Assembly (NCBI RefSeq): GCF_041260155.1
Contig: NC_091932.1
Span: forward strand, 12,767,441 to 12,831,440
Source: Ptychodera flava
Lineage: Eukaryota > Hemichordata > Enteropneusta > Ptychoderidae
DNA: 64,000 nucleotides
Direction: 5' to 3'
Both the position numbers and the translations under genes were made by a program. Positions 5,285 through 54,400 of this stretch are shown here, one piece after another. Numbering within the stretch: the stretch's first letter is position 1; each line of letters opens with the position of its first letter. The notes beneath the pieces are model-generated. The model did no database searches and was not told the origin of the DNA. It saw only the letters and a program-made list of their open reading frames with translations.

Positions 5285-5761
5285 GCAGGAAATACTGTTT
5301 TTTTCTATTTTCCCATGGGGGCGCCATTTTATGGGTGCGGCACCCGTTTATTATTAAACCTGTTAAAACGTGTAGGCATGGTCCAAATCAGCGAGCAGTG
5401 ATACTTCAATACACATCCTTCAGTAAGTACATTTAAACGAACCAACTCTCGTTTGAAAATAAAATCATGAAAATAATGCATAAAATTAGCAGCTATTGGG
5501 GCTTTAAAACGCACATCGATAAATTCTTTATAATTAGTAGCGCCCTCAAAGGCGTGTTCAATATGCGAAGCAACACAAGAGCGGATCAATTGCGAAAAAA
5601 TACCGTCATGGTTGATAAATAATTAAGGTAATTTTGTATTTATGGGAATGGTTTATGTTCACTACAAATATTACTTTTAAGAAACTCGCAGCCCTGAACT
5701 TGCAGCACTTTATCGCAAAGCTATCATGTCTTCTCAATGTTACTGTGTCTTTTCTCAACAG

Positions 5762-5792: not shown

Positions 5793-8700
5793 GTAAGTAT
5801 TAGCTTGATTCAGAGCTTTTGAAGACAAATGAAGGACCGATATTATGTTTTAAAATACCTGTTCTCTCTTGCATGCTTGCAAAATGGTCAAATAAATGGG
5901 TTGGGGGAAGGGAGTTATTGTGACCGATTTTGATAGCCTTATTCTCATTTGTGTTTGTGGTTATATAATTTACTTCAAATTCTTCTTGATTATTCTCCTA
6001 TAAAAGTAAACGAATAGATTCTGTCCAACGACGGAAAAGAATACAGTCAACTAGCATTTGTGTTGTTTTGTTTTGTTTTCACTCAAGAGTTGAAGGAGGT
6101 ATTCTCTTTGTTCGACAAGGACGATGATGGCGCTATCACCGTCAGGGAACTGGAAACTCTGCTCAGAATTATGGGGCCTTTGATCACGGAACATGAGATT
6201 CGAGAAATAGTTCGAAATAGAAAAGATGGTAAGTATGTACTGTTTTAAAGGAGAAATTTCACACCCAGGGCACTTACTTTGCTTAACAAGGACATTCCAG
6301 TAAATTATAATACTATTGAGGTTTCAGTTTAATAGAAAAATCAAAATCATCGAAATCAAATGATTTACTCGAGTTTCACGCATACACGTGATCGTCAGAT
6401 AGGGAGATTTATCATAATTTGCTTCAGGTGCAAATTTAACTCCAAAATCTGTCTATCTAAAGATCGCTTTTATGCGTGAAATTCGAATAATAGGAACCAA
6501 ATATACTTGATGTGTTCTCATCTTTATTGTAATATTGCTCTTTATTTTTGCGGAGCCGTACAACTTCGAGCCGAAGGCGAGAAGTTGTGCGGCTCCGCGA
6601 AAAACACGAGTATACGATGACGTCAAACAGAGAAAAATACCATGGGATTATATATTTATCACATGAACAGTCTCCTTATTTTTCTTTTGACGTGAATGGA
6701 TCAAAATTATCGTAACAAATTGCACGAATTTCGTCGCGATTTGTGTTTTACTTATGCGGATTACTTTCATTTAAAGAGTAAAGCGGCCCGTCACCCAGGA
6801 GATACTTTCATTCATAAATCCCATCAAGCTGAAATTTGCTACATTAAATGGTATCTCCACCAACCAGACATACGGATTCTGTCACGTGAACCTGTCAATC
6901 ATTGTCTCGCGCTGTACCGATGCCAAGGCAAGTCGGCCATCGGTACGGTGGACATAACTTTCATCGTGCTAGCGACGGATAGCCATAGTATTCAGAGTTA
7001 TTCAGAATATTTACAAATAGATTTATGAAGTAAATGCAACGACACGATCGAAACAGTAATCTCATTCTCAGAGATTCCGTGGCTTTTCAAAATATCACAC
7101 AAGTTTACGACCGTAGCGAGCGCGAAACTTTGATTCCGTTCGATGACACGTGTACCTCATTGCATGTTTATGCCCCGGGTTTATGCCCACAACGCTGCCG
7201 TCACCGCGCCGGTCTCTGCCATGCCGGTGCCAACTCGTTAATCCCGATCGTCAATGTTTGACTTTGATGTTTGCAGTGACATATATCTCACCCGTAGATA
7301 CATCCTAATTTTACTTTACGGAAACTCTGTTTTGAGTGTTGTCTGAGTCAACCTTCGAAGTACATCGGATTCCACAGCGCTGCAATGCATATAGGCCTAC
7401 AGCTCAACACTTGATGTCTTCGCTAGCGCTACAGCCATACGCCGCGCTACAGGTTTGATTCCGAGCAAGAATTTACGGAATTGTTTGTATGATGAAGGAA
7501 ATTTATCGTTGTTAGTCGAATGACTTTATGCTTGTGCCTGTATGTCGCTTTCCCGAAGATTATACTGTACTCATTTATTCAGTTGAACTTCCGTTGAGGT
7601 GAAGATTTCAGGTTTATCGCCAACCGGGATCGCCAGGTAAGCTTACGACGTCCACATTGAGCCTTACGAGGCGACTCGACTGGATCGGCGGTATCCCCAT
7701 TCGATTCTCGGGAACAGCTATAGTTTTAGCGACTCGAAATTTCGCTGGACATGCCTTCTATATTTCCATGTGTGGATTTATCGGGTCACCTTTTTTGAAA
7801 AAGTGTCATGAGAGCACGGCATCGATCACGACAAATCGGTCTATGTTCATGTCGCGACCCGCATGTATGAACGGTACCATGCAAGAAAAAAGTTCCGGTT
7901 GATGACGTACAACAGGGGTAATTCGGATTTCTTATCCGTCCTGTTCTACGTCACACAGGTGGGAATTCGGGCCAGTTCATGTGATAAATATATATATACA
8001 CAAAATGTATACAATGTGCCCTCCCGGTTATCACCATAATGGCTTTATGGCAACCTCTGAACTTTGGCACAGAATGATATATATTGATTAATAATCAATA
8101 TACTATATTTATTGCCCGGTAGATTTCTTTTAACACGTCCTGTCTTATCCATTTCAGCTGTTTTCGTTGAAACTGACAACGTAGATTTCCCAGAGTTCCT
8201 GACGATAATGGCGACAAGGATGATAGATGGCGAAGACGATAGCAAGGAGACGATACGGGCATTTCGCATATTTGAAAAAGACTCCGAGGGATTTGTCAAA
8301 ACTTCCGAAATGAGACAGCTGCTGACTCAAGTTGGTGAGCAACTTACAGATGAAGAAATGGATGAGATAATAAGTGATCTCGACACGGATAACGATGGGC
8401 TAATTAAATATGACGGTACGTTCGACTTGTTGTTCAATCGCAATACTATTTCTCAAGTCCTTGGCAACACACAGATTCTGTCACGATGTTGGTGTATACT
8501 TTGACATATTTGTCTAGGGATCATCGGTACTTAAATGCTGCACGGGAAAATTTCTGTAGACATAGATCAATCTATTTTTCTCTCTTTTTTATAACAAATT
8601 TCAGTGATTCGGGGCTACAAAGTCCCTTTGTTAATAACTTTGTGGTCTGATTGAAATTGAATGTAGATGTATTACCGACCTCGCAGTGTTTGTGCCACAG

Positions 8701-21385: not shown

Positions 21386-24300
21386 GTATATAAATGATGG
21401 GCTAACTGACATAAATCAGTCGTAAAACAGATAGATTGATAGATAGATAGATAGATAGATAGATACATAGATACATACATAGATACATACATACATACAT
21501 ACATACATACATACATACATACATACATACATACATACATACATACATACATACACACACACATACATACATACATACATACATACATACATACATACAT
21601 ACATACATACATACAGACACACATACATACATACATACATACATACATACATACATACATACATACATACATACATACATACATACATACATACATACAT
21701 ACATACATACATACATACATACATACATACATACATACATACATACATACATACATACATACATACATACATACATACATACATACATACACACATATAT
21801 ACATTTATCCTTCAAGTGTTGATATTCATCTAATATCAATACTTACTTAATGAGTAAAACGATGAAAACTGCAAACATGACCAGGAGAATGAGAATGGCG
21901 ACAATGATACCCTGTAAGGCACCTGAAGATTGTAAAGCAGAAATGTTTCATTTATTTTTGTATTTTAATGGATACAGATGTATGTTCAAGCCAAGAATGA
22001 TACTGGCCTTCGAAGTACATTTCACCCACCATTTACGACGGCAACGTTTCTGGTACAATAAATGGAACATTATTCCACCAATTCCGAGACGACAGCATCA
22101 CGTTCCTCGTATGATATATTATCAATGCAAGAAAATATCTAAGCAAAAATTCCACCTTGATAATCAGCAAAGGCCATTTCTTACCAGCTGAAATTCCTTG
22201 TTCCGTTTCTTGAGTTCCAATAGCTAGCAGTATAAAAAATGTATATTCAAACTGTTAATTTTCATTTTATGTCAATTGAAAATAGCTTCACCATTTGATA
22301 GCTTTCTCATTTATATATGTCCAGTAAACAAATACATTTCTTTCGTCTTCTTAGTTAAAACACGATTGGAACTAATTTTGGATAATTGGATGGTGAAGTA
22401 ATGTCGATTTTATCTGCAAATGTAATCTCATCTGCTTTTCTTTTTAGGTTACACACTTGTTTTCATGAGTAATATGAAATTTTGGAAGATTCAGCTATAG
22501 GGTACCTAACACTTTTGAGAAATTTGAAAAATATGAATATCCAATTATCCCAAATTAGTTCCAATCGTGTTTTAAATATGCTTAAATATATACAAAATAT
22601 GGCTTGGCGAGTGCACAACACTTTTTACAATAGGAAGTGTTATTATTGTTTACGATTGACTTCTAGTTTGGACGAAAATTCAGTCGTCAACATACTGTTA
22701 ACGAGCACTCCAACATAATTTAGGAGTAGAGTGAGAAGCGTATTATACAGACAGCAAAACGAAACAAAATTAATATGGACGTAACTACTTTAGGAGACAT
22801 TGATAAGTAGACTAACAACCAAGCAATTTTCAGCGGAATTGCTAAAGTGATCAAAATACTCCTACGTGATCACGAAATTCCTTTACGGTCCTTGAACAGT
22901 GTCTGGTAGGTAATGTCCGTGGTAGGGTGAGGGACGGGGGTTAACCGTCTAAGAACCTCCTTTACTTGTCGAAGTCAATGAACGATGTCTCTCTCAGCAT
23001 GTAGAATGGGTATTCTAAAGTACTTTATTTATTGGACCACGTGAAAAGTCAAAATTTGATATTTGTTATTAATTTAACAATAACACTTATTACATTGCCT
23101 GACCCGAACTCGACTGACCTTGACATTGATTCTGAAACATTAACACGAGCACCCTGATGACACTTGTACTTGTATCACAGTTTCCGTTGATAGGAATCGT
23201 CTGGGAACTGAAAAATAATAACACCAGTAATTATTCATCTCACAAAACCATACCTTTGAAATTGATAACGAATCCCCTGTCCTCCATGGCACCATTCGAT
23301 TTAAAGATAACGAGGACTTTGTTAGATGTAGAGTTGACAGACTCTGGTACTATGCCATGGCCGTACTTGTCTCCAGTGATGTGTAGCAGAACAGGTGAAC
23401 TGATTGTAGGGCCATCTCTCAGCTCTATCCAGTCATTTTCATCTTGTTTCATTGAGAACATCACAAAGTCAATTCGGATGATTTTCTTACCGCTGACCTG
23501 TATGAGCCATTGGCAGTCGGAGTTGGCTTGGTAAGACCCGGGAAATCCGGGAGATACGATCGTTCCGTTGTCAGCCTGGATCGTTTCCCCGGTAGGAGGC
23601 GTGACGGCGCCCGATATCTCACCGCAACTACCGTATCGTGCTGTTGAGGCGAATGGTATAACGTGTTGTAATGGAATTTAGATGCCTAGAACACGATTGG
23701 AACTATTTTGGGAGAATTGGATCTTGATATTTTTCAAACTTCTCAAAAGTGTTGGGTTCTCTATAGCTGAATGTTTCAATATTAGAAATTACTCATAAAA
23801 ACAAGTGCATCGTTCAAAGAGAAAAACCGACTAGCTTACATTTGCAGATTAAATCGACATTAGTTCACTATCCAATTATCTCAAACTAGTTCCAATTGTG
23901 TTCTAGGTGTAATTAAATAGATGACTATGTATGTATGTATGTATGTATGTATGTATGTATGTATGTATGTATGTATGTATGTATGTATGTATGTATGTAT
24001 GTATGTATGTATGTATGTATGTATGTATGTATGTATGTATGTATGTATGTATGTATGTATGTATGTATGTATGTATGTATGTATGTATGTATGTATGTAT
24101 GTATGTATGTATGTATGTATGTATGTATGTATGTATGTATGTATGTATGTATGTATGTATGTATGTATGTATGTATGTATCTATATGTGATTTATTGTTC
24201 TTAAAGGCCTCCGGCCCATATTACATATTGCAATTGGAAAATACAATGGAAAGTAAGAAAGCGAGAGTACAGTCAATATCTACAGGCATTCCTTTCTCAG

Positions 24301-27300
24301 CTTTGTTGCCTTGCACACAAATAATGCCATTTTAAAAATTACCATACCGTTTGAAGATGACTATGTATGTATGTATGTATGTATGTATGTATGTATGTAT
24401 GTATGTATGTATGTATGTATGTATGTATGTATGTATGTATGTATGTACGTATTTAATGCAGAATATACGATTCTACTAAACCTGACGTTTCAGTGACTAT
24501 TTGTACCAGTGTATCATTATGCATGACTTCATTTCCCTATCAGGGTAAACAGATTTAATTGACCGTTAATTTTCTCACCGTCATAAACGCTAAGATACTC
24601 ATATCCTCCGCAAGCCTGGTAGTCATTGGCAACGCAGGTAGTGTTGCAAAACCTGTTTGCTTGGCGACCGGTGTATAAACCCGTCACGTTGTTGCTGCAA
24701 TAACACTGTCTTCTTCGATGCAGGGCGGCGAGAATGTTGCCGTTTTCACGACAGTAGCCGATGCATCTCTCCAGCGTCATGTCGTTCACCGTCAATCGCA
24801 AACCATCAGCAGGGAATGAAGAGTGGTTGGCTTGGTAACATCCTTTGTAACCTGGCACTGCGGGATAGATATCGGAGGAAAAATCTATGATTTATATTTT
24901 GTATTACTGAATATCAACTGACTGTCGATGACTGCTCATGGTGCTTTATGTTTTCACAAATTATACGCTATCTCGATAAAAGCTATATTTGCCCTACGTG
25001 GTAAAATTTGGGCAATGATAAAAACTGTTTCAAATAGCAAGCTTTCCGGAAATAAGGTGAATGGGTCTGATTTTATGTATCGGCAGATATTTTCAAAGGC
25101 ATGTCAGTACCGGAGGAAACTGTTTTAATATAAAAATTCGCAAAGTTTGGGGGCACATCTGCACACAAAGTATAGTATGTGTCCCCATCATTGCAAACAT
25201 ATTATGACAACTAGTGTGGGTCGGGAAAGACGAGTGGAGTCAAAACGAGGTGTATACCTATTGAAGGGAGCGTTAGTGGAAAAGGGAAACTGTTGAGCGC
25301 AGCTGACTATACGACTATTTACTTAAGACTGAAGGATTATGTTGTATATGGGTGTTCCGCTATCTCCGACCCCGACCTGACGTTGAGGGAGTATTCATAC
25401 ACAACCGAATCTTTCAGTCCAGTTACTCACTACACGTTAGGAAGAACTACCTGAACAGAGAAATTGTTTTATTTAGTAGACAGATTCACACAGGTATGTG
25501 TTGTTTGTAAGTACGTGTACACAGATACGTGCGTGCGTACAGTACACGTTCACAACACGTTCAAATAATGCCTAAATGAATTAGGAAAGGTTGCCTAGGC
25601 TACTGACCGTTACACGTGACACTCGCTTCGTCCGTATACTTTTTACACCCTCCACTTGGAATTCCAGTTCTGTCACAGGCGGAAATGCCATCTTCGTCAC
25701 CATGGCAATCAACATTCTTCACGAGATAACCGAACGTTTCGTCCTCTGTCATCCATCGTCTCTCCGCCTTCGCCAGCATGGCACCCATCTCATGCCCTGC
25801 AAAATATTGCAGACCTTTAATGTACATCGTGGTACAAAACATACTGGATAATTTTGAGCGACCTTATCATCGCTGTAAATTCTTTTCTATTATAGGTATA
25901 ATATAATTTGTCATTTTAAGAATTTTAAATCGTTTGTGAGTTGTTCATATCGATTCGGATCCAATTACTGCCAACCCACATGGTCCCACCACCGGTCTAG
26001 AAACGTCACAATGTATTACCCATACCATAGTGAAAAGGAGTGATACAGATTGGTTTCGGAATCTGTCATCTGTTTTTCACGTCATCAACAAGTGAACAAC
26101 TTGCTAAGCTTGGATAAATTGATGATTCATACTTTCAAAAATGTAATGAAGTATTCTGCAATTTGCTGAGTCAAACGTCACCTTCAAAACAGTGAAACAT
26201 TTGAACATTCTTATTTTCAGTTTGGTTTTACATCTTTTGTTGGGTAATTACAATCACGAAGGCAAAAAATTGCAGCACTTTTGTCATCCCTTGTACTATG
26301 TACTTGCAGTATACAGAAAATTTGAAAAAAGTCAATGTTTTAAACTTGATAAAGGTAATAAGACCTCCTGTGTTGAGATGTTTTTGTCAACATCATGGAA
26401 ATTGCATTGTCATTCAACCAGCAAAAATCACATGTAAATAATATGCACAACATCAGCTAAGGCCAGAAAGGATACTTAACTTGTTCGTCTGAATTGCCAC
26501 TTCTTCTTCAGCCAAGTTGGAAGTTATTAAGTCGCGCTAAATACATACCTCGGCACCGCAATTGTATCAGTACTTTTAAGGCATTTTTTTATATATTCTT
26601 ACAGTATTTTTCCTTCTTAGAGCATGTCAAAATTCTCAGAAGTTGTTCTGTCAACACTGCATGTACATTTTATGCCCCTGTTATTGTGGACAGTTCGTAA
26701 AATCTAGACTCCAAGTCATAAGTAACAATGTAACCAGTGGGAGATTTAGCCAGTTCGTAAAAATATTCGTCCGGCGACAAAATCACTGTCTAAAGAGCCT
26801 TATTAATTTCTTACCGAGCTGTCGACAGACCACGTCGGCGTCTCGCATATCCCATCCTTCATTGCAAACAAGTCCCCATCGATCGACGGAGGCTATGTCC
26901 ACTCTCCCTTCGAAAGGTAGTCCTTCACCTGTCAAACGAACTGCACCTGTAGGGGGATGGGGTGGGGAAATCGTTTTTTTCCAAATGTAGGTATGACTAT
27001 ATCAAAATAACTCATCCACGGGTAATTTTGACGACCCGTATATAACTTTATATTATGCCCTATACTTTTCAGGGTATGAAATAAGCAACTATTCACAATG
27101 TGCTGCGAAACAAGGTTCAAGTTTTTGCTTGAAAAAGAGTTAATTGTGATTATTCAGCAACAAAAAATAAATTTAATATTGTTCACTATTAGAGACAGTT
27201 TGATCAATTGTTGACAAATCTTCAAATAAATCGTAAAACATAGAAAAAATGCAGGAAGTTTTGTCAAAGAAATGTTAGTACAAAGTCTTTACATACTATT

Positions 27301-28899: not shown

Positions 28900-31080
28900 A
28901 ATTTAATGTACTGGCAACTCTGGGGATATCGTCAGTACGTGCCTGCCCTGTCGCCGTCGCTACTCTTCTTGTCCACACTGCACAGCGCTCCCACTGTTAT
29001 CACTAGCTTCGTCTACTTTCCATTCTTCCAGACTAAATAACCTCCATAATTCGATAAATTGGTTGACGAATACGAATACACACAAGTGTAGCTATCATAA
29101 ACATGAATATGGTCGGTTCCGTTGTTTACATAAAAAGGTTGGTCTCTTATTACCTGACAAATGGCATACTTATTATTCATTGTTTGAACGTTTCCTCATT
29201 TCGTAGTAGCCGCGCCTTTACCATTTCACCGATTGGTTAGCAAACATTTATCATTGTTTACGCACATCTAAGTATTCGTTTCCGTGAAAAGTTATTTTCA
29301 GTGTTTACTCGCAAGCATAGGAAAGCAAAAGAACTCTTTTGGAGTTCTCATTCCATTGTTTGCTGTTATCAATATGACACCCATATGCAAATTGACACTC
29401 CATTGTCAACAAATATCAACTTAGTCAGAAATTCAACATTCAGGTCAAAAGATGTAATACTCAAAAACATTGCTGTCTTCCGCGAGTTTCCATAAAAGTG
29501 TTTCGAATTTATTCAAAACATTCAATCAGGATATTCCATTTCAGTAGAGAACCATGCACGGATTCCTCTAAATTCTTGAAATCCATGGTACTTCTCCACT
29601 TAAGGTACTTGCACACTGAGGTTCAATCATAGACACTATAAAATGTCGGGTATCAACTCTGAACATTTGTGGACTAATTTATGAGAATTTTTCAAATTTA
29701 GCATATGCGTTTTGAATTTCACAAGCCCATGCACTGTACGCACTGAGATAGTTCTTTTGTGTTTTATCAGTGTGTTTATTCAATAATTTTTATAGTTTTG
29801 TACTTTTCAACGGTCATCTAATTATCTGATTTATCTTATGTAGATTTTACAATGTAATTATTCGTCTCCCTAGTTAAGTAATCTATTCCCTCTGATGTAT
29901 CAAATCACTGAATGAAATGATTTACAAATCGAACAGTCTACTAGTATTCATTCGATTTGTAATAAAAAGAAAATATTTATTTGAAAGGCGCTACAAACGG
30001 AAACAGCCTACTTGAGATTTGAGATTTACACTGCTGAGAGACACAGGACGCTAGCTTTCCCACAATCCCATTCGATTGTACCAACGCATATACGAATTTT
30101 GGTCGCTAGAGGGCGCTGTGAAGAATCTGGGAAATCTCAGACTGCCGCGTTTACAACAGCTGTAAGGGCATGACCCAGACCATCCTCGATCAAGGAACAA
30201 TTTTCATAAAGTGCAATTTCTGCCGATTTTCATGGTTTTTTCCGATTTCTTTTCAGTGAAGCCATTGTTTAGCAATTAATCAGAACATTTTTGACCAAAA
30301 AGCTGTAAATTTTGCTGTTTTAAGCCTACTTCTTTGACATTTTCACTCCTACCCCGACGAAAGGAGTACAAGGCCATTTCTTGGAAGTCGACGGTAAAAG
30401 GTACGTTGAGATTATCGTGATTTTGTCCATTTTTTCTGTCAAAAATATGAATTTTAGAAAAAAGCAACGATTTCCTTAATTTTTGGCGCCTTTTTTCTTA
30501 TCAACTGTGATGGTCATGAATTTGGAGAACGTACTTTTGTTAAGCAACTCGAGAGCTTTGCAATGGTATGCCGATCGCCCATATTCACCCAATGAATGCA
30601 GGAGGAGTAGGAATTTGACTATGAGCATGTAAAAACTACTTTAATTTTCTAAGTTTTACGTCAGTAATTAGCCTGTACAAAGGCAGGCTAGGCAGGTAGG
30701 CTACTGACATAGTAGGTTTTGACAACGGAATATTCCTGCAGTATCTACCTCCGGCAGTGCAGTGTACTATACTGCAGCTGTGACTGACCATGGCATGGCC
30801 ACTGTACTTTTCTGTGTCTGTCAGTTGTCAGCATTTTACTTTCATGTTAAAAGGTTTAGGAAAACACCAAGAACGAGACATATGTTTTTAAAAGATGCAG
30901 TGCAGTGTATCAGAATGCAAGATGCATACTGCGTCTGGCCATCTAAATATATGCCGTTATGCTTTGCAGTATAACCTTTCTGAACAAATGTAAATAAACA
31001 TGTTTTTATTGTTGTTTGTTTGTTTGTTTGTTTGTTTGTTTGTTTGTTTGTTTATCTATTAATCATTCTATTGTTTATTT
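28900..31080. other. Upstream of the receptor gene; nothing coding seen
   Basis: It should contain the receptor promoter but I see no clear TATA box or initiator. No kelch or PHD coding region (RAG2-like) appears on either strand. Confidence 0.4.
31012..31053. repeat. (GTTT)n microsatellite
   Basis: Ten or so GTTT units in T-rich DNA downstream of the transposase frame. Confidence 0.95.
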
Positions 31081-31220
31081 ATGACTTTACACAATGCCAT
31101 CAATAGAAAATTTCACATAGTATTGTTTATTGATTTTTATTTTTATTTATTTTTTTTGTTTATTTATTTTTTTAATGTACAAGAATGTTCATATTCTATG
31201 CATATGCAGTCATTATAAGT

Positions 31221-32801
31221 TCAAAATTTCACAGGAGAAGCAGCCAAAATTTCAGGATCAGTTCTGTACAACCATCTGATTAAAATAGTCTTTGCCCAGT
31301 GCCCCCCACCCAGGTGACGCCTGATATCCATTTTCATTCGTTGATGGGACATTTCTATTCCTGAGCTGCTGTGTATATTAATTCCCTTATCTCTTTTCAG
31401 GAGTTGGTGTCCATGTGCAGCTACAGTATGCATATAATAGGTGAGTGATATGTGAGGTAACTCACAAATTATCCTTTTGACCCAGTTGACAGCATTGGAA
31501 TGAAATGTTGAAATTAAAGAATCAAAATCTATGATATTTGTATTGTATTGATTGTTGATTAGTTTGAAAGTGCTTGCATCAAATTGTGTAATTGCCATTA
31601 TGCTATTTAAAAGTCTATATTCCCTTATCAAAGATATGATTGTGCTTGCATATTTTGAATCGGTTAGAATTTTATTGCATCCACTGAGGACATCATTGTC
31701 CATCATGCGTGTGCATGCACCACCTTCGTAACCGCCCCCATATTTTTTGACAATGCCTTTTATTCTTAAGAATGCTTTCAGTTGACAAACTCTACTGGTG
31801 GGATTTTCAGAGATATACATTGCATTCTCAATGGTAGAGAGGCTGTCTTGAATGGCTTTGTTTTGTTTGTTCTTTGATAGTCTGTTTTGTTCACTCTCCT
31901 TACTTCCACAGACCTTTCCTTCACTGTCTTTTTTAGGAGGGGAATATTTTAAAAGTGTATTCATGTGGTTTATCAAAACTGTGTATTTTTCTGTTGTATG
32001 GTTTTCAATCATTTTTGCCATTGTGTGTCTGTGATATGCAATTAAGTCACCTGCTTCACCTACTTTATTAATTTCTTCATCTATACTTTCATATTTTTTT
32101 GAAATCATCATCAGTCTGTCTCTATTTTTGACTTTGACACTCAGATTTTCTGGTTCTTTGCCATTGAGGATGCTCTCAATAGATTTCACAATACTGAGCT
32201 TTTCCTGTTCTAATTTTGCTTCACTGTTCCTCTGTTTTTGTTCCAGGTCTTTTTTATGGAGTTTCCCATGGACATTTTGCAGATGCCTGTTGATACTTGG
32301 CCTCGTCGCATATTGCATACTGCACATTGAACATTTGTGTGTTGTTTTATTATTTACAATTAAAGATTCAATATTTGACTCAATACTGTCTGAAATATTA
32401 ATGTCCATGTCTGTAGTCTCATTTATTTTGAAATCAAAACTGTCAACGGCTGCTTCAAGTTTCCTGTTGACTTTTGTCATGTCATCCATTTGTGTTGCTG
32501 TAAGCAGTTTTGTTTCATGATTTACACCATGGACTTCCACCTTCAGGTCAAATTGTTCAGACAGTTTACTTTCATATTGTTTTATCTCACTCTGTACAGA
32601 TCCTGGTAGCTTGGCAAATTTTTGTACAAACTCTAGCTGCTTATCAATTTTTTCTGCCTCAACAAAGAGCTCATCTATAAGTTTTCCAATATTTCGCAAT
32701 TTGGCATGAAGGTGGTCCATGGTGTAATCATTGATTGGATTATATGCAATTAGAGGATGACTGGTCTGACCAAAACTGTTAGTCTCTGCCCACTCAGTCA
32801 T
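31221..32801 (-). pseudogene. Transposase frame 3: insertion, C2H2 finger and C-terminal catalytic Glu
   Basis: 526 codons from ATG 32801. MDHLHAKLRNIGKLIDELF resembles the RAG1 segment after the Cys pair. A C2H2-type finger (C157, C160, H173, H178: CSMCSMQYATRPSINRHLQN) lies in the long insertion, with coiled-coil-like Lys/Glu-rich sequence after it. Near the end are LTYYMHTVAAHGHQLLKRD with H458 and H463, then Glu483 in SGIEMSHQRMK and RWLYRTDPEIL, all placed as in the RAG1 C-terminal core. Continuous and intact over its length, so selection may have acted recently. Confidence 0.85.
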
Positions 32802-33475
32802 CTTTCAAGCGTTACTGTCATTTCCCATTCATGATGTGGATTATGACATTGCTCCACAGATGTCAAACACAAATTACAAAAAAATTTAGTACTTTTTCGT
32901 TGCAAAACCAAATTCTTGTACTTTTCGTCACCCTCTAATTTTCGTCGATATACCACCCCTCTAATTGTATTTTTGGCCCAGCCCTCAGTCAGATTCAAAA
33001 TAGGAAGTATGTCCTGTTGTATCAGTGTGTCACTTTCAGGTGCGTTGATGATGGCAAAGGGGATACGGCTGGCATCAGACTGGGGATTTGGGTCTCGCCA
33101 CACCTCTGCACCATTATACTTAATTACCCGAATTGCCCCACTTATTGCAAAAACTTTAAAATTTTGAGAAATCCCTTTGAAATCCTGAAAAGTATCGCCT
33201 CCCTCCCCAACAATCACTTCAAGTTTTTTACGTTCACACTCGTCTTCAATGTTAAAATCTAATTTATTTTCTCTTAATATACAAATTAAATGTTGCCAAA
33301 TTAACCCCTCAAGATCCTTTATGTACCAACCCTTTTTATTCTTGCTCTCAGTTTCTTCAACCATCTCATGAAAACGTCTTAAATTGCTCCGCAAGGCACC
33401 AAGTCTTGGAATTCTGGAGACATTATTAGGTGTCCTGATAGACTTTTCAAGCCCATCATAGTCGGCTTCTGACAA
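32798..33475 (-). pseudogene. Transposase frame 2: catalytic D/D region and zinc Cys pair
   Basis: This frame is open upstream to about 33600, overlapping frame 1 in the -1 register, so the first listed codon is not a true start. Counting from 33475, Asp94 sits in VIVGEGGDTF, Asp183 in KLEGDEKYKNL, and Cys200/Cys203 in FFCNLC. Around them are PFAIINAPESDTLIQQDILP and FKVFAISGAIRVI, which resemble the RNase H-like strands of the RAG1 core. The frame ends with TGA overlapping the ATG of frame 3 (ATGA). Confidence 0.8.
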
Positions 33476-33570
33476 CCCCCCACCTAAATGAATAAAGATG
33501 TGTTCAGCCTCCTTGTCATTCCATAATGCTATATTGTCAATATCTTCATTACCGTGCTGCTCATCATTAT

Positions 33571-34395
33571 CTAGTGGTAGCAGGGTATAAAAGCAGTTTG
33601 AATATGTTGAGGGAGAATATCCAGAGAAAGGGCTTTCTTAAAAAAATCAAGTGTTAAAATAGATTTTGCAAAGTTTAACGTTTTGTCCCTTTTCATTCGT
33701 AATTGCCACAGAGTGGACTCATCATTTCCCGATATTTTTTCCCCAATAATCTGATGTTGCCGCAAAATTTTATTCATATAGGCCCTCCCACCCATGGATT
33801 TTTTAGAAATGGCTGATCGATCTGAACTAAATAGAACCGAGACAGCGGCATCAACATACTCCGTGTCTGCACCTGACTGACGTTTCACGTTTTCCACAAG
33901 TTTTCTTATGACCTGGCGAACCTTACCAAACCCCTTTTCAACTACAAACGCAGAACATCGATTAAGTTCGTTTGCAAGTGCGGATCGGGCTTTCATTAAT
34001 TTGAACTTGTGGAACACTCGACTCTTGTTGAAAATTGTCCGGCTCATTGCCGCTGCCCAACCGTGATCTCGAACCATTCCCCTAACAAACAAGTCACTTG
34101 TCCCGATAGCGTAAAATCGGCTGCAAACCATACGTAAGTTACAGAAGTTTTTCACTTTCATAAACTGAACATGATCATCATCACCTTTATTAAAAAAACA
34201 ACAATACTGAAAAATTTCGGTTAAAACCTCCGATGGTAAGTCAACAATTGAACAAGGTCGCACAGGCTGTGCCACAGTGCCGATTTGCAGCGGCCGCGGC
34301 CGCGGACCAACCTCGTGTTCGCCTGATGATTGCTCTCGGGCCTTTTCAACACTCGATCTCCGCGCCTTTTGCGCCTGTTTCGCCGCTTTGATGGC
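33571..34395 (-). pseudogene. Transposase frame 1: F-box-like N-terminal region
   Basis: The frame is open from 34395, just after an in-frame TAG (34398-34396), to a stop at 33573-33571. The same frame is open above the TAG to an ATG at 34614-34612. IVDLPSEVLTEIFQYC followed by NLRMVCSRFYAIGTSDLF fits the F-box consensus (LP-x-E-hydrophobic-x-x-I, then LR-x-V-C-x-x-F). F-boxes bind Skp1 in SCF ubiquitin ligases. The remaining 170 or so residues are basic and helical-looking, without a family I recognise. There is no ATG between the TAG and the F-box, so the true start may lie above the TAG or in another exon (TATGCCTAG could be an acceptor). The end overlaps the next frame, which is open from about 33600. 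Confidence 0.65.
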
Positions 34396-34639
34396 CTAGG
34401 CATATTTGACTAATTTATCTTTAGAAAATATCACAGAATGAGCGTTAAAAAACACGACGATGTCTGAAAGTACGTTTTCACAGAGCCGATCGGTCAAGCC
34501 ACTCCGTACACATAGAGTGTCTAAGCGTAACTGAGCGTTGGAGATCAACCTGCGCAGTTGGTGAGAAAAGAATTGAGTTCTGCGCATTTCGATCTGCGTT
34601 GGTACAAATCGCATTGGATTGTGGGAAATTTTTCGTACC

Positions 34640-34640
<1 letters not shown>

Positions 34641-34736
<96 letters not shown>
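34641..34736. repeat. (GA)n microsatellite
   Basis: About 95 bp of GA repeat immediately upstream of the transposase frame, next to TTGTGGGAAA. Confidence 0.97.
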
Positions 34737-37949: not shown

Positions 37950-40897
37950 TTAAAATCAGAAAGCCTGGACTATACAACTAGTGGATGAAAATAGACCATC
38001 TCGATACGTTCTGTATTTTGGACATTCTATAACAAAGTGAAATTCATCCTCAACTAAAGACTTACAAAACTTGCAGAATCTGTCATTTGCAGGAACTTTT
38101 GGAATTGACCTTCTACCCAGTTCTATTTGTAGGTTGTGATCCGAAATTCTTAGTTTTGTCAGCCACCTCCTATAGGTACAAGATCTTATATCTAGCAAGT
38201 AACTTTCAAATTCAATTTTTGTCTTAAATAGCCTGTAAGTTCGGAGCTTATTCCTCTGCATTCCACACTTCCTCGTATCATTATGAATGTTTCTCAGCCA
38301 TGTTTGTTCATACATTTCACAAAACTATCATATACATTATTAACTGTGGAATTGATATTGCAAACACAAGACCATATATCACTCCCACTGTAAGAGTTCA
38401 AAATGCTTTGTATATAATTAGACCAATCTGAATTCAACCTGGACGTATAAGCAGATCTCAGTAAGATGTCATCTGATAAAACTAATCTATGCCAGTATTT
38501 GAGCATGTGCTTTATCACCACAAAGTGAATTGGATATCTACCCAGCTCTCCAACAACACCATCAGATGGTGCATGTTTAGATACTCCTAGGATAAATCTA
38601 TAATAAGATATACTAACATCATTGAGAAAGTTACATTTGTCATTAATTTCATATCCGCATATTTCACAGCCATATGTCATAATAGGAACAAGTAAACTAT
38701 CAAAGAGTGATAATGCAACTTTTACAGAAAGTGAACCATTCTGAAGGCCCTTACGAAGGCTGAAAAGAGCTTTCATTGCCTTCAATTTAAGATTATGAAA
38801 ATTACCTTTGAATCTACCATTGGGGTAATGACAAAACCAAGGTAACAGTACGTTTTCACTAAGTCAAGAGTCACTCCATTGTAAGTGAGTTTAACTCCTT
38901 TAAAAGATGATTACTTTTGTTAAACACAATAACTTTCGTTTTCTTTATGTTAATAGATAATTTCCATTCACGACAAAAACTATGAAGTTTATCTAAGCAG
39001 CTTTGTAAGCCTGTTTCAGATTCTGAAATCAATAAAAGATCATCAGCATACATTAGACAATTGATAAGGAGTTAACTAAGTTTGATAGGACAGTCCTGAC
39101 TGGAACCAAATGTACTGGGAAGATCATTTATAAAAATATTAAACAAAGTTGGACTTAAGTTACACCCTTGCTTAACTCCTAAACTGGAGTAAAATTCTTC
39201 AGTAAAGCAATTGTTACTTTTCACACAATACTTAATGTTGTGGTACATGGACTTAATTAAGCTATAAAAATTACCATTAATGCCATATTTCTGTAATTTC
39301 CAAAGTAAACTTGTACGCCAAACCCTGTCAATGCTTTCTGAAAATCTACAAAACAACAATAAAGGTACCTACGACTGGGACTACAGCTTGACTGATAAAA
39401 TTTCGCATAGATATGTTGATCGATATTAGAACGCAAAACAACAAGATTATCTGCAGTTCTCCTCTTTGCTCTGAAACCAGACTGAAATGGCGAAAGAATA
39501 CCATTGCTATTAAGAAAGTTTAGAAGCCTATTATTCAACACAGAGGTAAACAATTTTGCAAGGCAACTATTTATAGAAATACCTCTGTAATTTGACGGAT
39601 CACATGTATCACCTGATCTGAACACAGGACCAAATATGCTTTTTTCCAAGCATTTGGAAATGTTCCTGATCTGAGGATGACATTGAATAATGAACACAAT
39701 GGAGTAAGTATGGAAGAACCACCATATTTTAGCATTTCATTCAAAATACCATCGACGCCTGGGGATTTCCCTGATTTTAATTTATGCAAAGCCTAAATAT
39801 TTCTAATTCTCTAAATGTGGAATTAAGAATAACGTTCACATCATATCCATTGGCATCTTCCATTTTTGTTAATTCAGATATGATACGTTTAGAAACATTA
39901 TCAGTTTCTTCACAAGAAAATCACCTAACTGCTTAAAATGATAAAACCATTCAGCAGGAGAGATAGACGAGTCGATTTTCTTACAGACATATGACTCCCT
40001 GAAATATCCTTCCACAATTTCCAGTAATCATTATGGTCTTCGGAATAAACCCTTTCTAATTTCCTTAATTGACTCTTTCTGAAAGTTGACCGTTTACATT
40101 TTAACAATTTTTTGTATTCTCTTTTTAGAGTGAAACATCTCCCTCTAATATGTGGATCATTTGGGTAACGATTCAACAATTTACAGCAATCTTTAAGATC
40201 TTTACGAAGTGAAAAACAAGACTTGTCAAACCAAGGCTGGAAACCACGTTTTGATTTGTTCTTTTTCAATTTCGGCGTAACCTTACGTAAACAGCGATCT
40301 GAGACTTTGTGAATAATACCTTCAAATACCTTTACAATATTATCACAAGAATTGGAACTATGACACTCAATATTATAATTTCTAAAGTCTTCTTGAATAG
40401 ATGAACTTTGCAGAGTATTTAAGAAATATTGTTTGAACATGGTTTACACTCTACATCAACTGACTGCTTCACAATATTATTTATATTTATAGAAAAACCT
40501 ATTGGACAATGATCAGAGAAATGTGTAAAAGCATATACTTTGAAATAATCTATAAGGTTCGCCAAATTCTTTGTAACAATACCATAATCTACTGTACTAA
40601 ATCCATTTCCCTTGTAACAAGTTGGTTTTCCATAAAGACCCCCTGCAGTTCTACCATTTAAATCTGTAAGCCGTTTTGAATGCAAAGATCAATCAGTTGT
40701 CTCCCAAAGGAATTACTAAAACTACCATTATCCATTGAAATTCTATTGTGTATAAAGTCAGGAATATAAGAGGCGACAGGAAGAGAATACCGCGTACGCA
40801 TAAGAAGTCGTTGCGGTACTCTATATCTGATTTTAATCAGATTGATATTGTTTATGATGTAATGAAAACATTGTATCTGTTTGAAATCTCGATACAA
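37950..40897 (-). mobile_element. Decayed non-LTR retrotransposon (LINE)
   Basis: Minus-strand frames run in order through an APE-type endonuclease and a reverse transcriptase. About 40419-40685 has FSTVDYGIVT and FSDHCPI (endonuclease SDH motif). 39571-39789 has KLKSGKSPGVDG. 39257-39697 has NYRGISINSCLAKLF and CFVDFQKA. 39072-39359 has GVKQGCNLSPTLFNIFIND. 38871-39053 starts MYADD (catalytic YADD). 37956-38315 ends with a C-x2-C...H-x4-C knuckle (CKFCKSLVEDEFHFVIEC). The frame changes repeatedly, so the copy is dead. The layout fits CR1/L2/Jockey-like LINEs, but I cannot assign a clade. Confidence 0.9.
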
Positions 40898-47744: not shown

Positions 47745-50700
47745 AGAGACTCCATTCCCACGTGACAGGTGTATGACTCCGACCCAGGGCCAAATAGCAA
47801 TACAGATAAAATTCCAATGTCATTGCTCAAACTGGTTTTGAATAGCTCATAAAAACATAAAATGAAGGAGAAAATTGATGAGTTACAACATTATAGTGTT
47901 TGGAGAAGTGTTGAGAGTCTCCATTCCCATGTGACAGGTGTGTGACTCCCAAAGGTCTAAATTACAAGTGATACCAGAAAATGAAAATGTTATAATTAAA
48001 ATGGGTTCAGAATAGGTGAGGAAAACTTAAAAGATAGGAGAAGATGTGTCAGACACAAAAGATTGTGGTTGGAGCTGTGTTGAGAAACTCTCCATTCCCA
48101 CGTGACAGGTGTGTGACTCCCAAAGGTCTAAATTACAAGTGATAGAACAAAATTCAAGTGTAATATAAAAAAGGGTTTCAAATACGTCAGGAAAACTTAA
48201 AAGATAGGAGAAGATGTGTCAGACACAAAAGATTGTGGTTGGAGCTGTGTTGAGAAACTCTCCATTCCCACCTGACAGGTGTGTGACTCCCAAAGGTCTA
48301 AATTACAAGTGATAGAACAAAATTCAAGTGCAATAATAAAAAGGGTTTAGAATAGGTCAGGAAAACTTAAAAGGTAGGAGAAGATGTGTCAGACACACAT
48401 ACTGTGGTTGGGTCTGTGTTGAGAAACTCTCCATTCCCACCTGACAGGTGTGTGACTCCCAAAGGTCTAAATTACAAGTGATACCAGAAAATGAAAATGT
48501 TATAATTAAAATGCGTTCACAATAGGTGAGGAAAACTTAAAAGATAGGAAAGATGTGTCTGCAGACACAAAATATTGTGGTTGGAGCTGTGTTGAGAAAC
48601 TCTCCATTCCCACCTGACAGGTGTGTGACTCCCAAAGGTCTAAATTACAGTGATAGAACAAAATTCAAATGCAATAATAAAAAAGGGTTTAGAATAGGTC
48701 AGGAAACTTAAAAGGATAGGAAAGATGTGTCAGACACAACAATACTGTGGTTGGAGCTGTGTTGAGAAACTCTCCATTCCCACCTGACAGGTGTGTGACT
48801 CCCAAAGGTCTAAATTACAAGTGATACCAGAAAATAAATTGTAATAATTAAAAAGGATTCAGATAGGTGAGGAAAACTTAAAAGATAGGAGAAGATGTGT
48901 CAGACACACAATATTGTGGTTGGGTCTGTGTTGAGAAACTTTCCATTCCCACCTGACAGGTGTGTGACTCCCAAAGGTCTAAATTACAAGTGATACCAGA
49001 AAATAAAATTGTAATAATTAAAAAGGATTCAGAATAGGTGAAGAAAAACTTAAAAGATAGGAGAAGATGTGTCAGACACAAAATATTGTGGTTGGGCTGT
49101 GTTGAGAAACTCTCCATTCCCACCTGACAGGTATGTGACTCCCAAAGGTCTAAATTACAAGTGATAGAACAAAATTCAAATGTAATAATAAAAAGGGTTT
49201 CAAATAGTCAGGAAAACTTAAAGATAGGAAAGATGTGTCAGACACAAAATATTGTGGTTGGAGCTGTGTTGAGAAACTCTCCATTCCCACCTGACAGGTG
49301 TGTGACTCCCAAAGGTCTAAATTACAAGTGATAGAACAAAATTCAAGTGCAATAATAAAAAAGGGTTTAGAATAGGTCAGGAAAACTTAAAAGATAGGAG
49401 AAGATGTGTCAGACACACAATATTGTGTTGGGTCTGTGTTGAGAAACTCTCCATTCCCACCTGACAGGTGTGTGACTCCCAAAGGTCTAAATTACAAGTG
49501 ATACCAGAAAATAAAATTGTAATAATTAAAAAGGGTTCAGAATAGGTGAGGAAAACTTAAAAGATAGGAGAAGATGTGTCAGACACACAATATTGTGGTT
49601 GGAGCTGTGTTGAGAAACTCTCCATTCCCACCTGACAGGTGTGTGACTCCCAAAGGTCTAAATTACAAGTGATACCAGAAAATAAAATTGTAATAATTAA
49701 AAAGGGTTCAGAATAGGTGAGGAAAACTTAAAAGATAGGAGAAGATGTGTCAGACACACAATATTGTGGTTGGAGCTGTGTTGAAAAACTCTCCATTCCC
49801 ACCTGACAGGTGTGTGACTCCCAAAGGTCTAAATTACAAGTAAACCAGAAAATAAAATTGTAATAATTAAAAGGGTTCAGAATAGGTGAGGAAATTTAAA
49901 AGATAGGAGAAGATGTGTCAGACACACAATATTGTGGTTGGGTCTGGTTGAGAAACTCTCCATTCCCACCTGACAGGTGTGTGACTCCCAAAGGTCTAAA
50001 TTACAAGTGATAGAACAAATTCAAGTGCAATATAAAAAAGGGTTTCAAATAGGTCAGGAAAACTTAAAAGATAGGAGAAGATGTGTCAGACACAAAATAT
50101 TGTGGTTGAGCTGTGTTGAGAAACTCTCCATTCCCACCTGACAGGTGTGTGACTCCCAAAGGTCTAAATTACAAGTGATACCAGAAAATAAAATTGTTAT
50201 AATTAAAAAGGGTTCAGAATAGGTGAGGAAAACTTAAAAGATAGGAGAAGATGTGTCAGACACAAAATATTGTGGTTGGAGCTGTGTTGAGAAACTCTCC
50301 ATTCCCACGTGACAGGTGTGTGACTCCCAAAGGTCTAAATTACAAGTGATACCAGAAAATAAAATTGTAATAATTAAAAAGGATTCAGAATAGGTGAGGA
50401 AAACTTAAAAGATAGGAGAAGATGTGTCAGACACAAAAAATTGTGGTTGGAGCTGTGTTGAGAAACTCTCCATTCCCACATGACAGGTGTGTGACTCCCA
50501 AAGGTCTAAATTACAAGTGATAGAACAAAATTCAAGTGCAATAATAAAAAAGGGTTTCAAATAGTCAGGAAACTCAAAAGAATTAAAGATGTGTCAGACA
50601 CAAAATATTGTGGTTGGAGCTGTGTTGAAAACTCTCCATTCCCACATGACAGGTGTGTGACTCCCAAAGGTCTAAATTACAAGTGATAGAACAAAATTCA

Positions 50701-53700
50701 AGTGCAATAAATTAAAGGGGTTGAGAATAGGTCAGGAAAACTTAAAAGTAGGAGAAGATGTGTCAGACACAAATATTGTGGTTGGAGCTGTGTTGAGAAA
50801 CTCTCCATTCCACCTGACAGGTGTGTGACTCCCAAAGGTCTAAATTACAAGTGATACCACAAAATAAAATTGTAATAATTAAAAAGGGTTCAGAATAGGT
50901 GAGGAAAACTTAAAAGATAGGAGAAGATGTGTCAGACACACAATATTGTGGTTGGACTGTCTTGTTGAGAACTCTCCATTCCCACATGACAGGTGTGTGA
51001 CTCCCAAAGGTCTAAATTACAAGTGATACCACAAAATGAAAATGTTATAATTAAAATGGGTTCAGAATAGGTGAGAAAAGTTAAAAGAAAGGAGAAGATG
51101 TGTCAGACACACAATATTGTGGTTGGGTCTGTGTTGAGAAACTCTCCATTCCCACGTGACAGGTGTGTGACTCCCAAAGGTCTAAATTACAAGTTAAAGA
51201 ACAAATTCACATGCAATAATTAAAAAGGGTTGAGAATAGGTCAGGAAACATTAAAGATATGAGAAGATGTGTCAGACACAACATATGGGGGTTGGAGCTG
51301 TGTTGAAAAACTCTCCATTCCCACGTGACAGGTGTGCTGACTCCCAAAGGTCTAAATTACAAGTAAACAACGAAATTCACATGCAATAATTAAAAAGGGT
51401 TGAGAATAGGTCAGGAAACATAAAAGATATGAGAAGATGTGTCAGACACAAAATATTGTGGTTGGAGCTGTGTTGAGAAACTCTCCATTCCCACGTGACA
51501 GGTGTGTGACTCCCAAAGGTCTAAATTACAAGTTAAACAACAAAATTGAAATGTGATAATTTAAAGGGGTTGAGAATAGGTCAGGAAAACTTAAAGATAG
51601 GAAAGATGTGTCAGACACAAAATATTGTGGTTGGAGCTGTGTTGAGAAACTCTCCATTCCCACGTGACAGGTGTGGGACTCCCAAAAGGTCTAACTTACA
51701 AGTTAAACAACAAAATTCACATGCAATAATTAAAAAGGGTTGAGAATAGGTCAGGAAACCTTAAAGATTTAGAGAAGATGGTTAGACACAAAATATGGTG
51801 GTTGGAGCTGTGTTGAGAAACTCTCCATTCCCAGTGACAGGTGAGTGACTCCCAAAGGTGTAAATTACAAGTGATAGAACAAAATTCAAAGTAATAGTTG
51901 AAAGGGGTTCAGAATAGGTGAGGAAAAATTAAAAGATAGGAGAAGATGTGTCAGCAGATAAGATTGTGGTTGGAGCTGAGTTAAGAAACTCTCCATTCCC
52001 ACGTGACAGGTGAGTGACTCCCAAAGGTGTAAATTACAAGTGATAGAACAAAATTCAAATGTAATAATTGAAAGGGGTTCAGAATAGGTGAGGAAAAATT
52101 AAAAGATAGGAGAAGATGTGTCAGACACAAAAGATTGTGGTTGGAGCTGAGTTAAGAAAGTCTCCATTCCCACGTGACAGGTGAGTGACTCCCAAAGGTG
52201 TAAATTACAAGTGATAGAACAAAATTCAAATGTAATAATTGAAAGGGGTTCAGAATAGGTGAGGAAAAATTAAAAGATAGAACAAGATGTGTCAGCACAT
52301 AAGATTGTGGTTGGAGCTGAGTTAAGAAACTCTCCATTCCCACGTGACAGGTGTGTGACTCCCAAAGGTCTAAATACAAGTGATAGAACAAAATTCAAAG
52401 ATACAAAAATGAAAATGTAAAAATAAAAGGGTTCAGAATAGGTGAGGAAAACTTAAAAGATAGGAGAAGATGTGTCAGACACAAAAGATTGTGGTTGGAG
52501 CTGAGTTAAGAAAGTCTCCATTCCCACGTGACAGGTGTGTGACTCCCAAAGGTGTAAATTACAAGTGATAGAACAAAATTCAAATGTAATAATTGAAAGG
52601 GGTTCAGAATAGGTGAGGAAAAATTAAAAGATAGAACAAGATGTGTCAGCAGATAAGATTGTGGTTGGAGCTGAGTTAAGAAACTCTCCATTCCCACGTG
52701 ACAGGTGTGTGACTCCCAAAGATGTAAATTACAAGTTATAGAACAAAATTCCAATGTAATAATTGAAAGCGGTTCAGAATAGGTTAGGACAAAATAAAAG
52801 ATAGGAGATGTGTCAGACACAAAAGATTGTGGTTGGAGCTCAGTTAAGAAAGTCTCCATTCCCACGTGACAGGTGTGTGACTCCCAAAGGTGTAAATTAC
52901 AAGTGATAGAACAAAATTCAAATGAAATAATTGAAAGGGGTTCAGAATAGGTGAGGAAAAATTAAAAGATAGGAGAAGATGTGTCAGACACAAAAGATTA
53001 TGGTTGGAGCTGAGTTAAGAAACTCTCCATTCCCACATGACAGGTGAGTGACTCCCAAAGGTGTAAATTATAAGTGATAGAACAAAATTCAAATGTAATA
53101 AATTGAAAGGGATTCTGAATAGGTGAGGAAAAATTAAAAGATAGGAGAAGATGTGTTCAGACACAAAAGATTGTGGTTGGAGCTGAGTTAAGAAACTCCA
53201 TTCCCACGTGACAGGTGTGTGACTCCCAAAGGTCGAAATTACAAGTGATAGAACAAAATTCAAATGTAATAATTGAAAGGGGTTGAGAATAGGTCAGGAA
53301 AAATTAAAAGATAGAACAAGATGTGTCAGCAGATAAGATTGTGGTTGGAGCTGAGTTAAGAAACTCTCTATTCCCACGTGACAGGTGTGTGACTCCCAAA
53401 GATGTAAATTACAAGTGATAGAACAAAATTCAATGTAATAATTGAAAGCGGTTCAGAATAGGTTAGGACAAAATAAAGATAGGAGATGTGTCAGACACAA
53501 AAGATTGTGGTTGGAGCTGAGTTAAGAAAGTCTCCATTCCCACGTGACAGGTGTGTGACTCCCAAAGGTGTAAATTACAAGTGATAGAACAAAATTCAAA
53601 TGTAATAATTGAAAGGGGTTCAGAATAGGTGAGGAGAGTTTAAAAGATAGGAGAAGATGTGTCAGACACAAAAGATTGTGGTTGGAGCTGAGTTAAGAAA

Positions 53701-54400
53701 CTCTCCATTCCCACGTGACAGGTGAGTGACTCCCAAAGGTGTAAATTACAAGTGATAGAACAAAATTCAAATGTAATAATTGAAAGGGGTTCAGAATAGG
53801 TGAGGAAAAATTAAAAGATAGGAGAAGATGTGTCAGACACAAAAGATTGTGGTTGGAGCTGAGTTAAGAAAGTCTCCATTCCCACGTGACAGGTGTGTGA
53901 CTCCCAAAGGTCTAAACTACAAGTGATAGAACAAAATTCAAATATAATAATTAAAAGGGGCTCAGAATAGGTGAAGAAAATTAAAAGATAGGAGAACAAG
54001 TGTCAGACACAAAAGATTGTGGTTGGAGCTGAGTTAAGAAACTCTCCATTCCCACGTGACAGGTGTGTGACTCCCAAAGGTCTAAGTTCCAAGTGATAGA
54101 ACAAAATTCAAATGTAATAATTAAAATGGGTTCAGAATAGATGATTATTTAAAAGATAGAGAAAGATGTGTCAGACACTCAATATAGTGGTTTGGTCTGT
54201 GTTGAGAAACTCTCCATTCCACGTGACAGGTGTTTGACTCCCAAAAAGGTCTAAATTACAATGGCAACAACAAAATGCAAGTGTAATAATTAAAAAGGGT
54301 TTTGAATAGGTAAGGAAAGGTTAAAATATACGAGAAGATATGTAAAACAAACAATACAGGGGTTGGAGCTGTGTTGAGAAACTCTCTATTCCCATATGAG
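47745..54400. repeat. Satellite array, about 170 bp monomer, about 39 copies
   Basis: Each unit contains CTCCATTCCCAC, a TGACAGGTGTGTGACTCCCA box, TAAATTACAAGTGATA and GAAGATGTGTCAGACAC. I located the CTCCCAAAGG landmark at about 170 bp steps from 47951 to 54238. Units at both ends are diverged. Two half-unit types alternate irregularly (GATACCAGAAAATAAAATTG versus GATAGAACAAAATTCAA). Short frames inside are by-products. Confidence 0.96.

Follow-up and report, generated by a model that had tools for sequence, protein, structure and literature searches.

A probable CMCT-clade DNA transposon of Ptychodera flava with a putative F-box at the N-terminus of its RAG1-like transposase

Introduction

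RAG1 belongs to the CMCT clade of cut-and-paste DNA transposons, alongside EnSpm/CACTA, Mirage, Chapaev and Transib. In this report, we analyse a 64,000-nucleotide stretch of Ptychodera flava DNA (contig NC_091932.1 of assembly GCF_041260155.1, positions 12,767,441 to 12,831,440; hereafter the window), which contains at 30042-34642 a 4.6 kb element that is, in our best reading, likely to be a single, damaged copy of a cut-and-paste transposon of this clade. Its one gene would encode a DDE transposase of ~1060 amino acids, with an F-box at the N-terminus and, between the two halves of the zinc site, a long extra stretch that includes a C2H2 finger.

The CMCT clade has been described as comprising EnSpm/CACTA, Mirage, Chapaev, Transib, Plavaka, ESTA and Lanisha, with zinc motifs common to the whole clade and similar termini across it (PMC12730594). 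Canonical Transib transposases have no identifiable domain besides the core (PMC4411706). The N-terminal part of RAG1 carries a ubiquitin-ligase (RING) domain (PMC4411706, PMC7204232), and a RING domain is likewise present in the N-terminal part of two Chapaev subgroups (PMC4411706). F-boxes have been reported in combination with parts of Mariner and Zisupton, including a platyfish Zisupton with an F-box in one isoform; the 2025 survey that cites this case considers F-box capture by transposons possible and states that it found no evidence of it (PMC12062965).

An earlier note on this DNA, made from the letters alone, had placed a RAG1/Transib-like transposase without a RAG2-like partner at 31221..34614, and had considered it directly relevant to how V(D)J recombination arose.

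Results

Three overlapping open reading frames (ORFs) on the minus strand, joined as amino acids from 34395 to 31221, yield a read-through protein of ~1058 amino acids. ORF1 (33571..34395, 274 amino acids) is the N-terminal part including the F-box, ORF2 (32798..33637, 279 amino acids) holds the first two catalytic acids and a C-x2-C motif, and ORF3 (31221..32804, 527 amino acids) comprises the insertion region and the C-terminal catalytic part. For comparison, ORFs reached a length of at most 221 amino acids when the stretch was resampled 300 times under a Markov model. Eight RAG1-type residues occur in the read-through in the order D-D-C-C-H-H-H-E, namely D401, D490, C507, C510, H564, H990, H995 and E1015, with D600, D708, C727, C730, H795, H937, H942 and E962 as counterparts in P0001, a mouse-like RAG1 whose numbering takes the first acid as D600. 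The read-through thus presents the CMCT residue set of D, D and E with C(2)C, H(3-4)H and one further H. For this clade, the legend of Figure 4 of PMC12730594 marks three acids together with 2C and 3H, where the third H would correspond to the His of our DHLH motif. Catalysis would be carried out by the D, D and E identified here.

On the minus strand, the first acid is the D of GEGGD (33194..33196), equivalent to D600 by order and spacing, and is followed by PESD (33035..33037) and by the second acid, the D of EGDEK (32927..32929), which falls on D708 in the alignment with medaka RAG1. The C-x2-C motif, CNLC (32867..32878), aligns to C727/C730. The His of DHLH (32706..32708) takes the position of H795, which has been called an active-site residue (PMC7204232), on the basis of spacing and the medaka alignment, while HTVAAH (31413..31430) aligns to H937/H942 and the third acid, the E of SGIEMSH (31353..31355), to E962. 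The acids and zinc ligands given in the earlier note, which listed neither the DHLH His nor the F-box, were thus found in the stated order and at the stated places. The spacings along D-ESD-D-C-C-H-H-H-E are 52, 37, 17, 3, 54, 426, 5 and 20 in the read-through and 62, 46, 19, 3, 65, 142, 5 and 20 in P0001; local distances are therefore close to those of RAG1, and only the H564-H990 interval is much longer (426 vs 142, i.e. 284 additional residues). Since 66 of 10,000 shuffles of the read-through protein contain the spaced pattern, it is no proof by itself.

Alignments were made to the P0001 core and to seven of 120 fetched RAG1 proteins, all seven from vertebrates; RAG1 and RAG1L (the RAG1-like proteins of invertebrates) are the only comparators. 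The C block (residues 931-1058) scored 56 against the P0001 core, a value reached by none of 2000 shuffles (31 ± 4.2), over the region of H-x4-H and E962, with E placed on E. The D-D block (residues 386-590) scored 50, reached by 11 of 1000 shuffles, over the region with ESD and C727/C730. Across the seven RAG1 proteins, single scores ranged from 56 to 61 for the C block and from 43 to 59 for the D-D block, and of 1500 shuffles none equalled the mean score of the former and a single one that of the latter; reversal of either side lowered the scores of 56 and 50 to 24 and 35. Of the two D-D alignments displayed, medaka and whale shark, the former sets GDEK/CNLC/DHLH on YDEK/CTLC/DALH. In P0001 and in medaka RAG1, the two blocks fall on the corresponding regions and in the same sequence.

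Profile comparison by hhalign, using a shallow RAG1 profile (number of effective sequences, Neff, 1.1-1.4), returned E 0.0013 for the C block (0 of 300 shuffles reach this score) and E 0.043 for the D-D block (10 of 300); the whole protein gave E 0.035, again on the C block. Furthermore, a phmmer search of 177,635 PDB sequences with the last 112 residues placed amphioxus RAG1L (BbRAG1L, 6b40) first, with E 0.094. When the 130 ORFs of at least 80 amino acids in the window are ranked by raw score against the RAG1 core, ORF3 and ORF2 occupy the top two places, and they are also the longest. The resemblance to the core, which stands above shuffles for RAG1 and is marginal in PDB for RAG1L, is on sequence comparison best described as real but distant homology.

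The element is bounded by inverted repeats of ~55 bp. The left repeat (30042..30096, plus strand) starts with CACAGGACG and contains the blocks TTTCCCACAATCC (30056-30068) and GTACCAACGCA (30078-30088), while the right repeat (34588..34642, minus strand) ends in CGTACCGTG. The parts that carry the two blocks are 30056-30096 and 34588-34628, and their outward extension leads to CAC..GTG at 30042/34642. The interval 31221..34614 of the earlier note hence misses the ends. AGAGA at 30037..30041, where AGA fits too, and AGAGA at 34643..34647 are candidate target-site duplications, the latter within the first bases of a (GA)n microsatellite (34642-34736). In a scan of offsets -4 to +29 from 30042 and lengths 2-8, duplications of at least 3 bases were confined to offsets -3 to 0, all in the same GA run; two further offsets gave 2-bp matches, which we attribute to chance. 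As this sequence is of low complexity and adjoins the (GA)n run, the duplication is weak evidence, and a length of 5 bp fits this one copy as well as one of 3 bp. The exact ends at 30042/34642, proposed from this copy, are provisional, given the microsatellite that forms the right flank and an agreement of the outer 14 bases at eight sites. Alternative termini at TTTCCC, CCC or the inner CACAATCC were rejected, as no duplication accompanies them.

An F-box was detected at 34087..34242 on the minus strand, as a match in two stretches to Pfam PF00646 (E 4.3e-6, 26.9 bits, cut-off 20.5); in the read-through it scores 24.1 bits (E 3.3e-5). It lies inside the inverted repeats and on the strand of the transposase, in a frame that differs from that of the catalytic part. 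The enlarged insertion contains a C2H2 zinc finger (32268..32333, minus strand) which reads directly as C-x2-C-x12-H-x4-H at residues 689-710, within the H564-H990 stretch, and which matches zf-C2H2_11 with E 7.7e-4 and 19.5 bits (cut-off 27). At an E threshold of 0.1, the six frames of 30042-34642 matched F-box and C2H2 models only, with no kelch, PHD or RING model among the Pfam hits, and the statement that a RAG2-like partner is lacking holds for this interval and these models.

The difference in frame leaves room for the view that the ORF with the F-box is an independent gene of the host, or a piece of one, which by chance adjoins a shorter transposase, and residues 101-395 of the read-through are indeed unlike RAG1 (see below). 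This view requires that an ORF which is enclosed by the inverted repeats, shares the strand of the transposase and overlaps ORF2 by 67 bases is foreign to the element, and it leaves ORF2 and ORF3 without most of the part that precedes the catalytic domain. Since the first Met of ORF2 lies just 56 residues ahead of the first acid, ORF1 is required for a normal N-terminal half. We consider a separate F-box gene unlikely, and prefer a single protein that would span the frame breaks.

There are two frame changes between the ORFs, the second overlap (ORF2/ORF3) measuring 7 bases, and inspection by eye revealed no clear signal for programmed frameshifting there. The copy may be broken by at least two frame changes, or there are assembly errors at these places, or a short 5' exon exists. 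The first Met of ORF1 falls inside the F-box, and the start codon must therefore lie outside the frame of ORF1. Just upstream, another minus-strand frame is open at 34221-34409, in which an ATG precedes a strongly basic segment (MPRPSKRRNRRKRR); this may be the start and the nuclear signal of the transposase.

The reading as a transposon with an F-box transposase is supported by the inverted repeats that bound the ORFs, by residues in RAG1-like order and spacing, by RAG1 alignments that exceed those of shuffles, and by an F-box above the Pfam cut-off. A number of results weigh against it. The first acid was aligned onto D600 in no automatic alignment (a forced hhalign run set EVIVGEG on TVVVKES, directly before D600, and then opened a gap), and the register of the second acid is off by a few residues in the hhalign and P0001 alignments. 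In whale shark RAG1, the best match of the D-D block is an unrelated N-terminal part of the protein. The N-terminal half (residues 101-395) has no similarity to the NBD/DDBD of RAG1, with 170 of 500 shuffles reaching its score. The hhalign probabilities are only 18.6% for the C block, 1.2% for the D-D block and 1.5% for the whole protein, whose score is reached by 5 of 200 shuffles. The second PDB match of the C block, an unrelated phosphatase, is hardly worse than the first (E 0.26), and the D-D block, whole ORF2 and whole ORF3 find no RAG1 in PDB; ORF2 is also without a Pfam match. The Pfam RAG1 model (PF12940) matches neither the ORFs nor the read-through, and gives 1248 bits with a RAG1 core. 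Among the 12 best ORFs, for which z-scores against their own shuffles were computed, ORF3 (3.1) and ORF2 (2.8) rank below a 97-amino acid ORF at 5332-5622 (3.5). At the ends, the outer 14 bases of the repeats are identical at 8 of 14 positions only, and among 2988 pairs of stretches drawn at random from the window, two gave an alignment as good as that of the element ends.

The database searches belong on the same side. The read-through and its C-terminal region, compared with 5.8 billion proteins, gave no match at E 1e-3 among 7989 scored candidates and none at E 1 among 36. A RAG1 core retrieves 249 proteins from this database, which therefore includes animals; invertebrate RAG1L is absent among the 120 matches listed, and the first step of the search is word-based, so that the result is no proof that distant relatives are absent. 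Viral contigs searched with ORF3 and ORF2, and prokaryote genomes searched with ORF3, contained no relative. Single-sequence AlphaFold models of ORF2 and ORF3, made separately, had a mean predicted local distance difference test (pLDDT) score of 37 and are uninformative either way, as is a Foldseek search with the low-confidence ORF2 model, which returned unrelated proteins (best E 0.16).

Taken at their strongest, the weak hhalign statistics, the silence of PDB and Pfam for the ORFs and the D-D block, the better z-score of the ORF at 5332-5622 and the spaced pattern in shuffled proteins would mean a chance resemblance, in which the ORFs belong to an unrelated DDE family or to no transposase at all. 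Against this stand both blocks, which lie well above shuffles over seven RAG1 proteins and in order on P0001 and medaka RAG1, and the situation of the ORFs between inverted repeats. We regard such a coincidence as highly improbable.

The position of the element within the clade is a separate question. The earlier note had assigned the transposase to RAG1/Transib: likeness to the RAG1 core stands, as distant homology, on the alignments and the PDB match, whereas the family does not follow. Because the zinc motifs are common to the whole clade, they point to CMCT and not to RAG1/Transib, and the joined frames that the note had proposed for a profile comparison gave the hhalign match on the C block described above and none with Pfam RAG1. 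Placement beside RAG1/Transib rather than elsewhere in the clade is, on the sequence comparisons made, unproven.

A Transib-like element without RAG2, on the Transib/RAG1 branch proper, would account for the matches to RAG1 and RAG1L (the sole comparators), for a 5-bp AGAGA duplication with a CAC start, as in Transib and RAG-like (RAGL) elements, and for the likeness of GDEK to YDEK, of ESD to DESD, and of the distance from the first H of H-x4-H to E, 25 residues in both. However, the C/H motifs and similar termini occur across CMCT, the end heptamers CACAGGA and CACGGTA agree with CACAGTG/CACTATG (compared from PMC8289069) for three to five bases only, and the 43 residues after the last acid include no Cys and hence no CCGHC tail, a feature of invertebrate RAG1L (PMC7204232). 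The longer H-H interval, the F-box and the silence of Pfam RAG1 also speak against this branch, which we consider doubtful. The provisional ends, CAC..GTG with a candidate 5- or 3-bp duplication, would fit the CMCT clade and its trait of CA..TG-type termini with duplications of 2-5 bp. They would suit an EnSpm/CACTA-type or other CMC element in particular, since the flanks are as compatible with a 3-bp duplication of AGA as with AGAGA, and CAC..GTG termini with 3-bp duplications are taken as consistent with EnSpm (PMC12730594). This assignment draws on the ends and the candidate duplication; AGA is not the TWA that Chapaev3 duplicates (PMC4079192), and no RING model was matched. It is a possibility to be held tentatively, short of an even chance.

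The part of the element downstream of the gene (30097..31220) contains (TTTG)n, and no Pfam domain was found in it. The DNA of the window is of animal type, with microsatellites, a satellite array, and ORFs that match CUB, EF-hand and reverse transcriptase models. Long ATAC/TATG tetranucleotide arrays (23 to 92 copies, 96-99% matches) lie at 21439-21804, 23926-24184 and 24362-24452, and a 6.6-kb satellite array at 47750-54394 consists of a 170/341-bp unit in about 39 or 19.5 copies with 89% matches. An ORF with EF-hands (8088-8504, plus strand, E 3.8e-10) and one with a CUB domain (23240-23677, minus strand, E 4.1e-19) are probably exons of host genes. Minus-strand ORFs at 38294-40443 belong to a decayed retroelement, probably non-LTR as judged by eye, and one of them has a reverse transcriptase match at 39257-39736 (Pfam RVT_1, E 4.8e-7, 30.1 bits, cut-off 29.6).

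Discussion

The element is probably of an ordinary kind, a cut-and-paste transposon of the CMCT clade, and its build, with the putative F-box fusion, is unusual. With the clade it shares D, D, E with 2C and 3H and, as far as the provisional ends go, CAC..GTG termini and a candidate short duplication, and it differs by the N-terminal F-box. Compared with RAG1, the zinc-site insertion is very long and carries a C2H2 finger. ProtoRAG/RAGL elements (BbRAG1L, 6b40) are alike in the C-terminal block of H-x4-H and last acid and in the CAC start; in contrast, the element has no RAG2L inside its repeats (by Pfam, six frames), no CCGHC tail and no conserved heptamer, and an F-box in the place where RAG1L has N-terminal zinc fingers. 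Transib is similar in its one transposase gene, its CAC ends and possibly a 5-bp duplication, and is distinguished by the absence of an F-box and by a heptamer resembling the recombination signal sequence (RSS), which the ends of the element match at its start only. The Chapaev elements with a RING finger (PMC4411706) combine, as here, a RAG1-related core with an N-terminal domain of ubiquitin-ligase type, although this is an F-box in the element, and its AGA/AGAGA duplication departs from the TWA of Chapaev3. The platyfish Zisupton is likewise a DNA transposon with an F-box (PMC12062965), of another transposase family and with 8-bp duplications (PMC12730594); no 8-bp repeat was found at the element in the registers scanned. 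Among the papers listed by our literature searches, none showed an F-box in a CMCT element.

By analogy with RAG1 and Transib, the transposase would dimerise and bind the inner repeat blocks, nick next to the terminal CAC to free the element, and join its 3' ends to target DNA with a stagger of 5 or 3 bases. The F-box may couple the transposase, or a host protein bound to it, to a Skp1-Cullin ubiquitin ligase, its simplest role being to hold transposase levels low.

A bolder interpretation is that the element represents a lineage of RAG1-type transposons which is undescribed among the papers listed, and that the transposon itself captured the F-box and fused it to its transposase, by which the enzyme would connect to an SCF ubiquitin ligase; we put this forward as a conjecture with slightly less than an even chance of being correct. 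If true, the capture would parallel the RING ubiquitin ligase of RAG1 and of some Chapaevs, and would document directly the uptake of an F-box by a transposon, a process of which the survey (PMC12062965) states that it had found no evidence.

With respect to V(D)J recombination, all Transibs then known encode only one protein (PMC4411706), so that the lack of RAG2 does not set this element apart, and the relevance to V(D)J origins that had been claimed is weak. The element by itself is uninformative on how RAG1 and RAG2 came together, and probably represents a cousin of elements already known, not the direct forerunner of antibody-gene recombination. The fusion is worth following if other copies show the F-box and the catalytic part in one frame. 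It would show that F-boxes are able to move into transposons, and a second RAG1-type transposase whose corresponding end bears another ubiquitin-ligase adaptor would suggest that a link to protein turnover benefits the transposon itself and did not originate with immunity.

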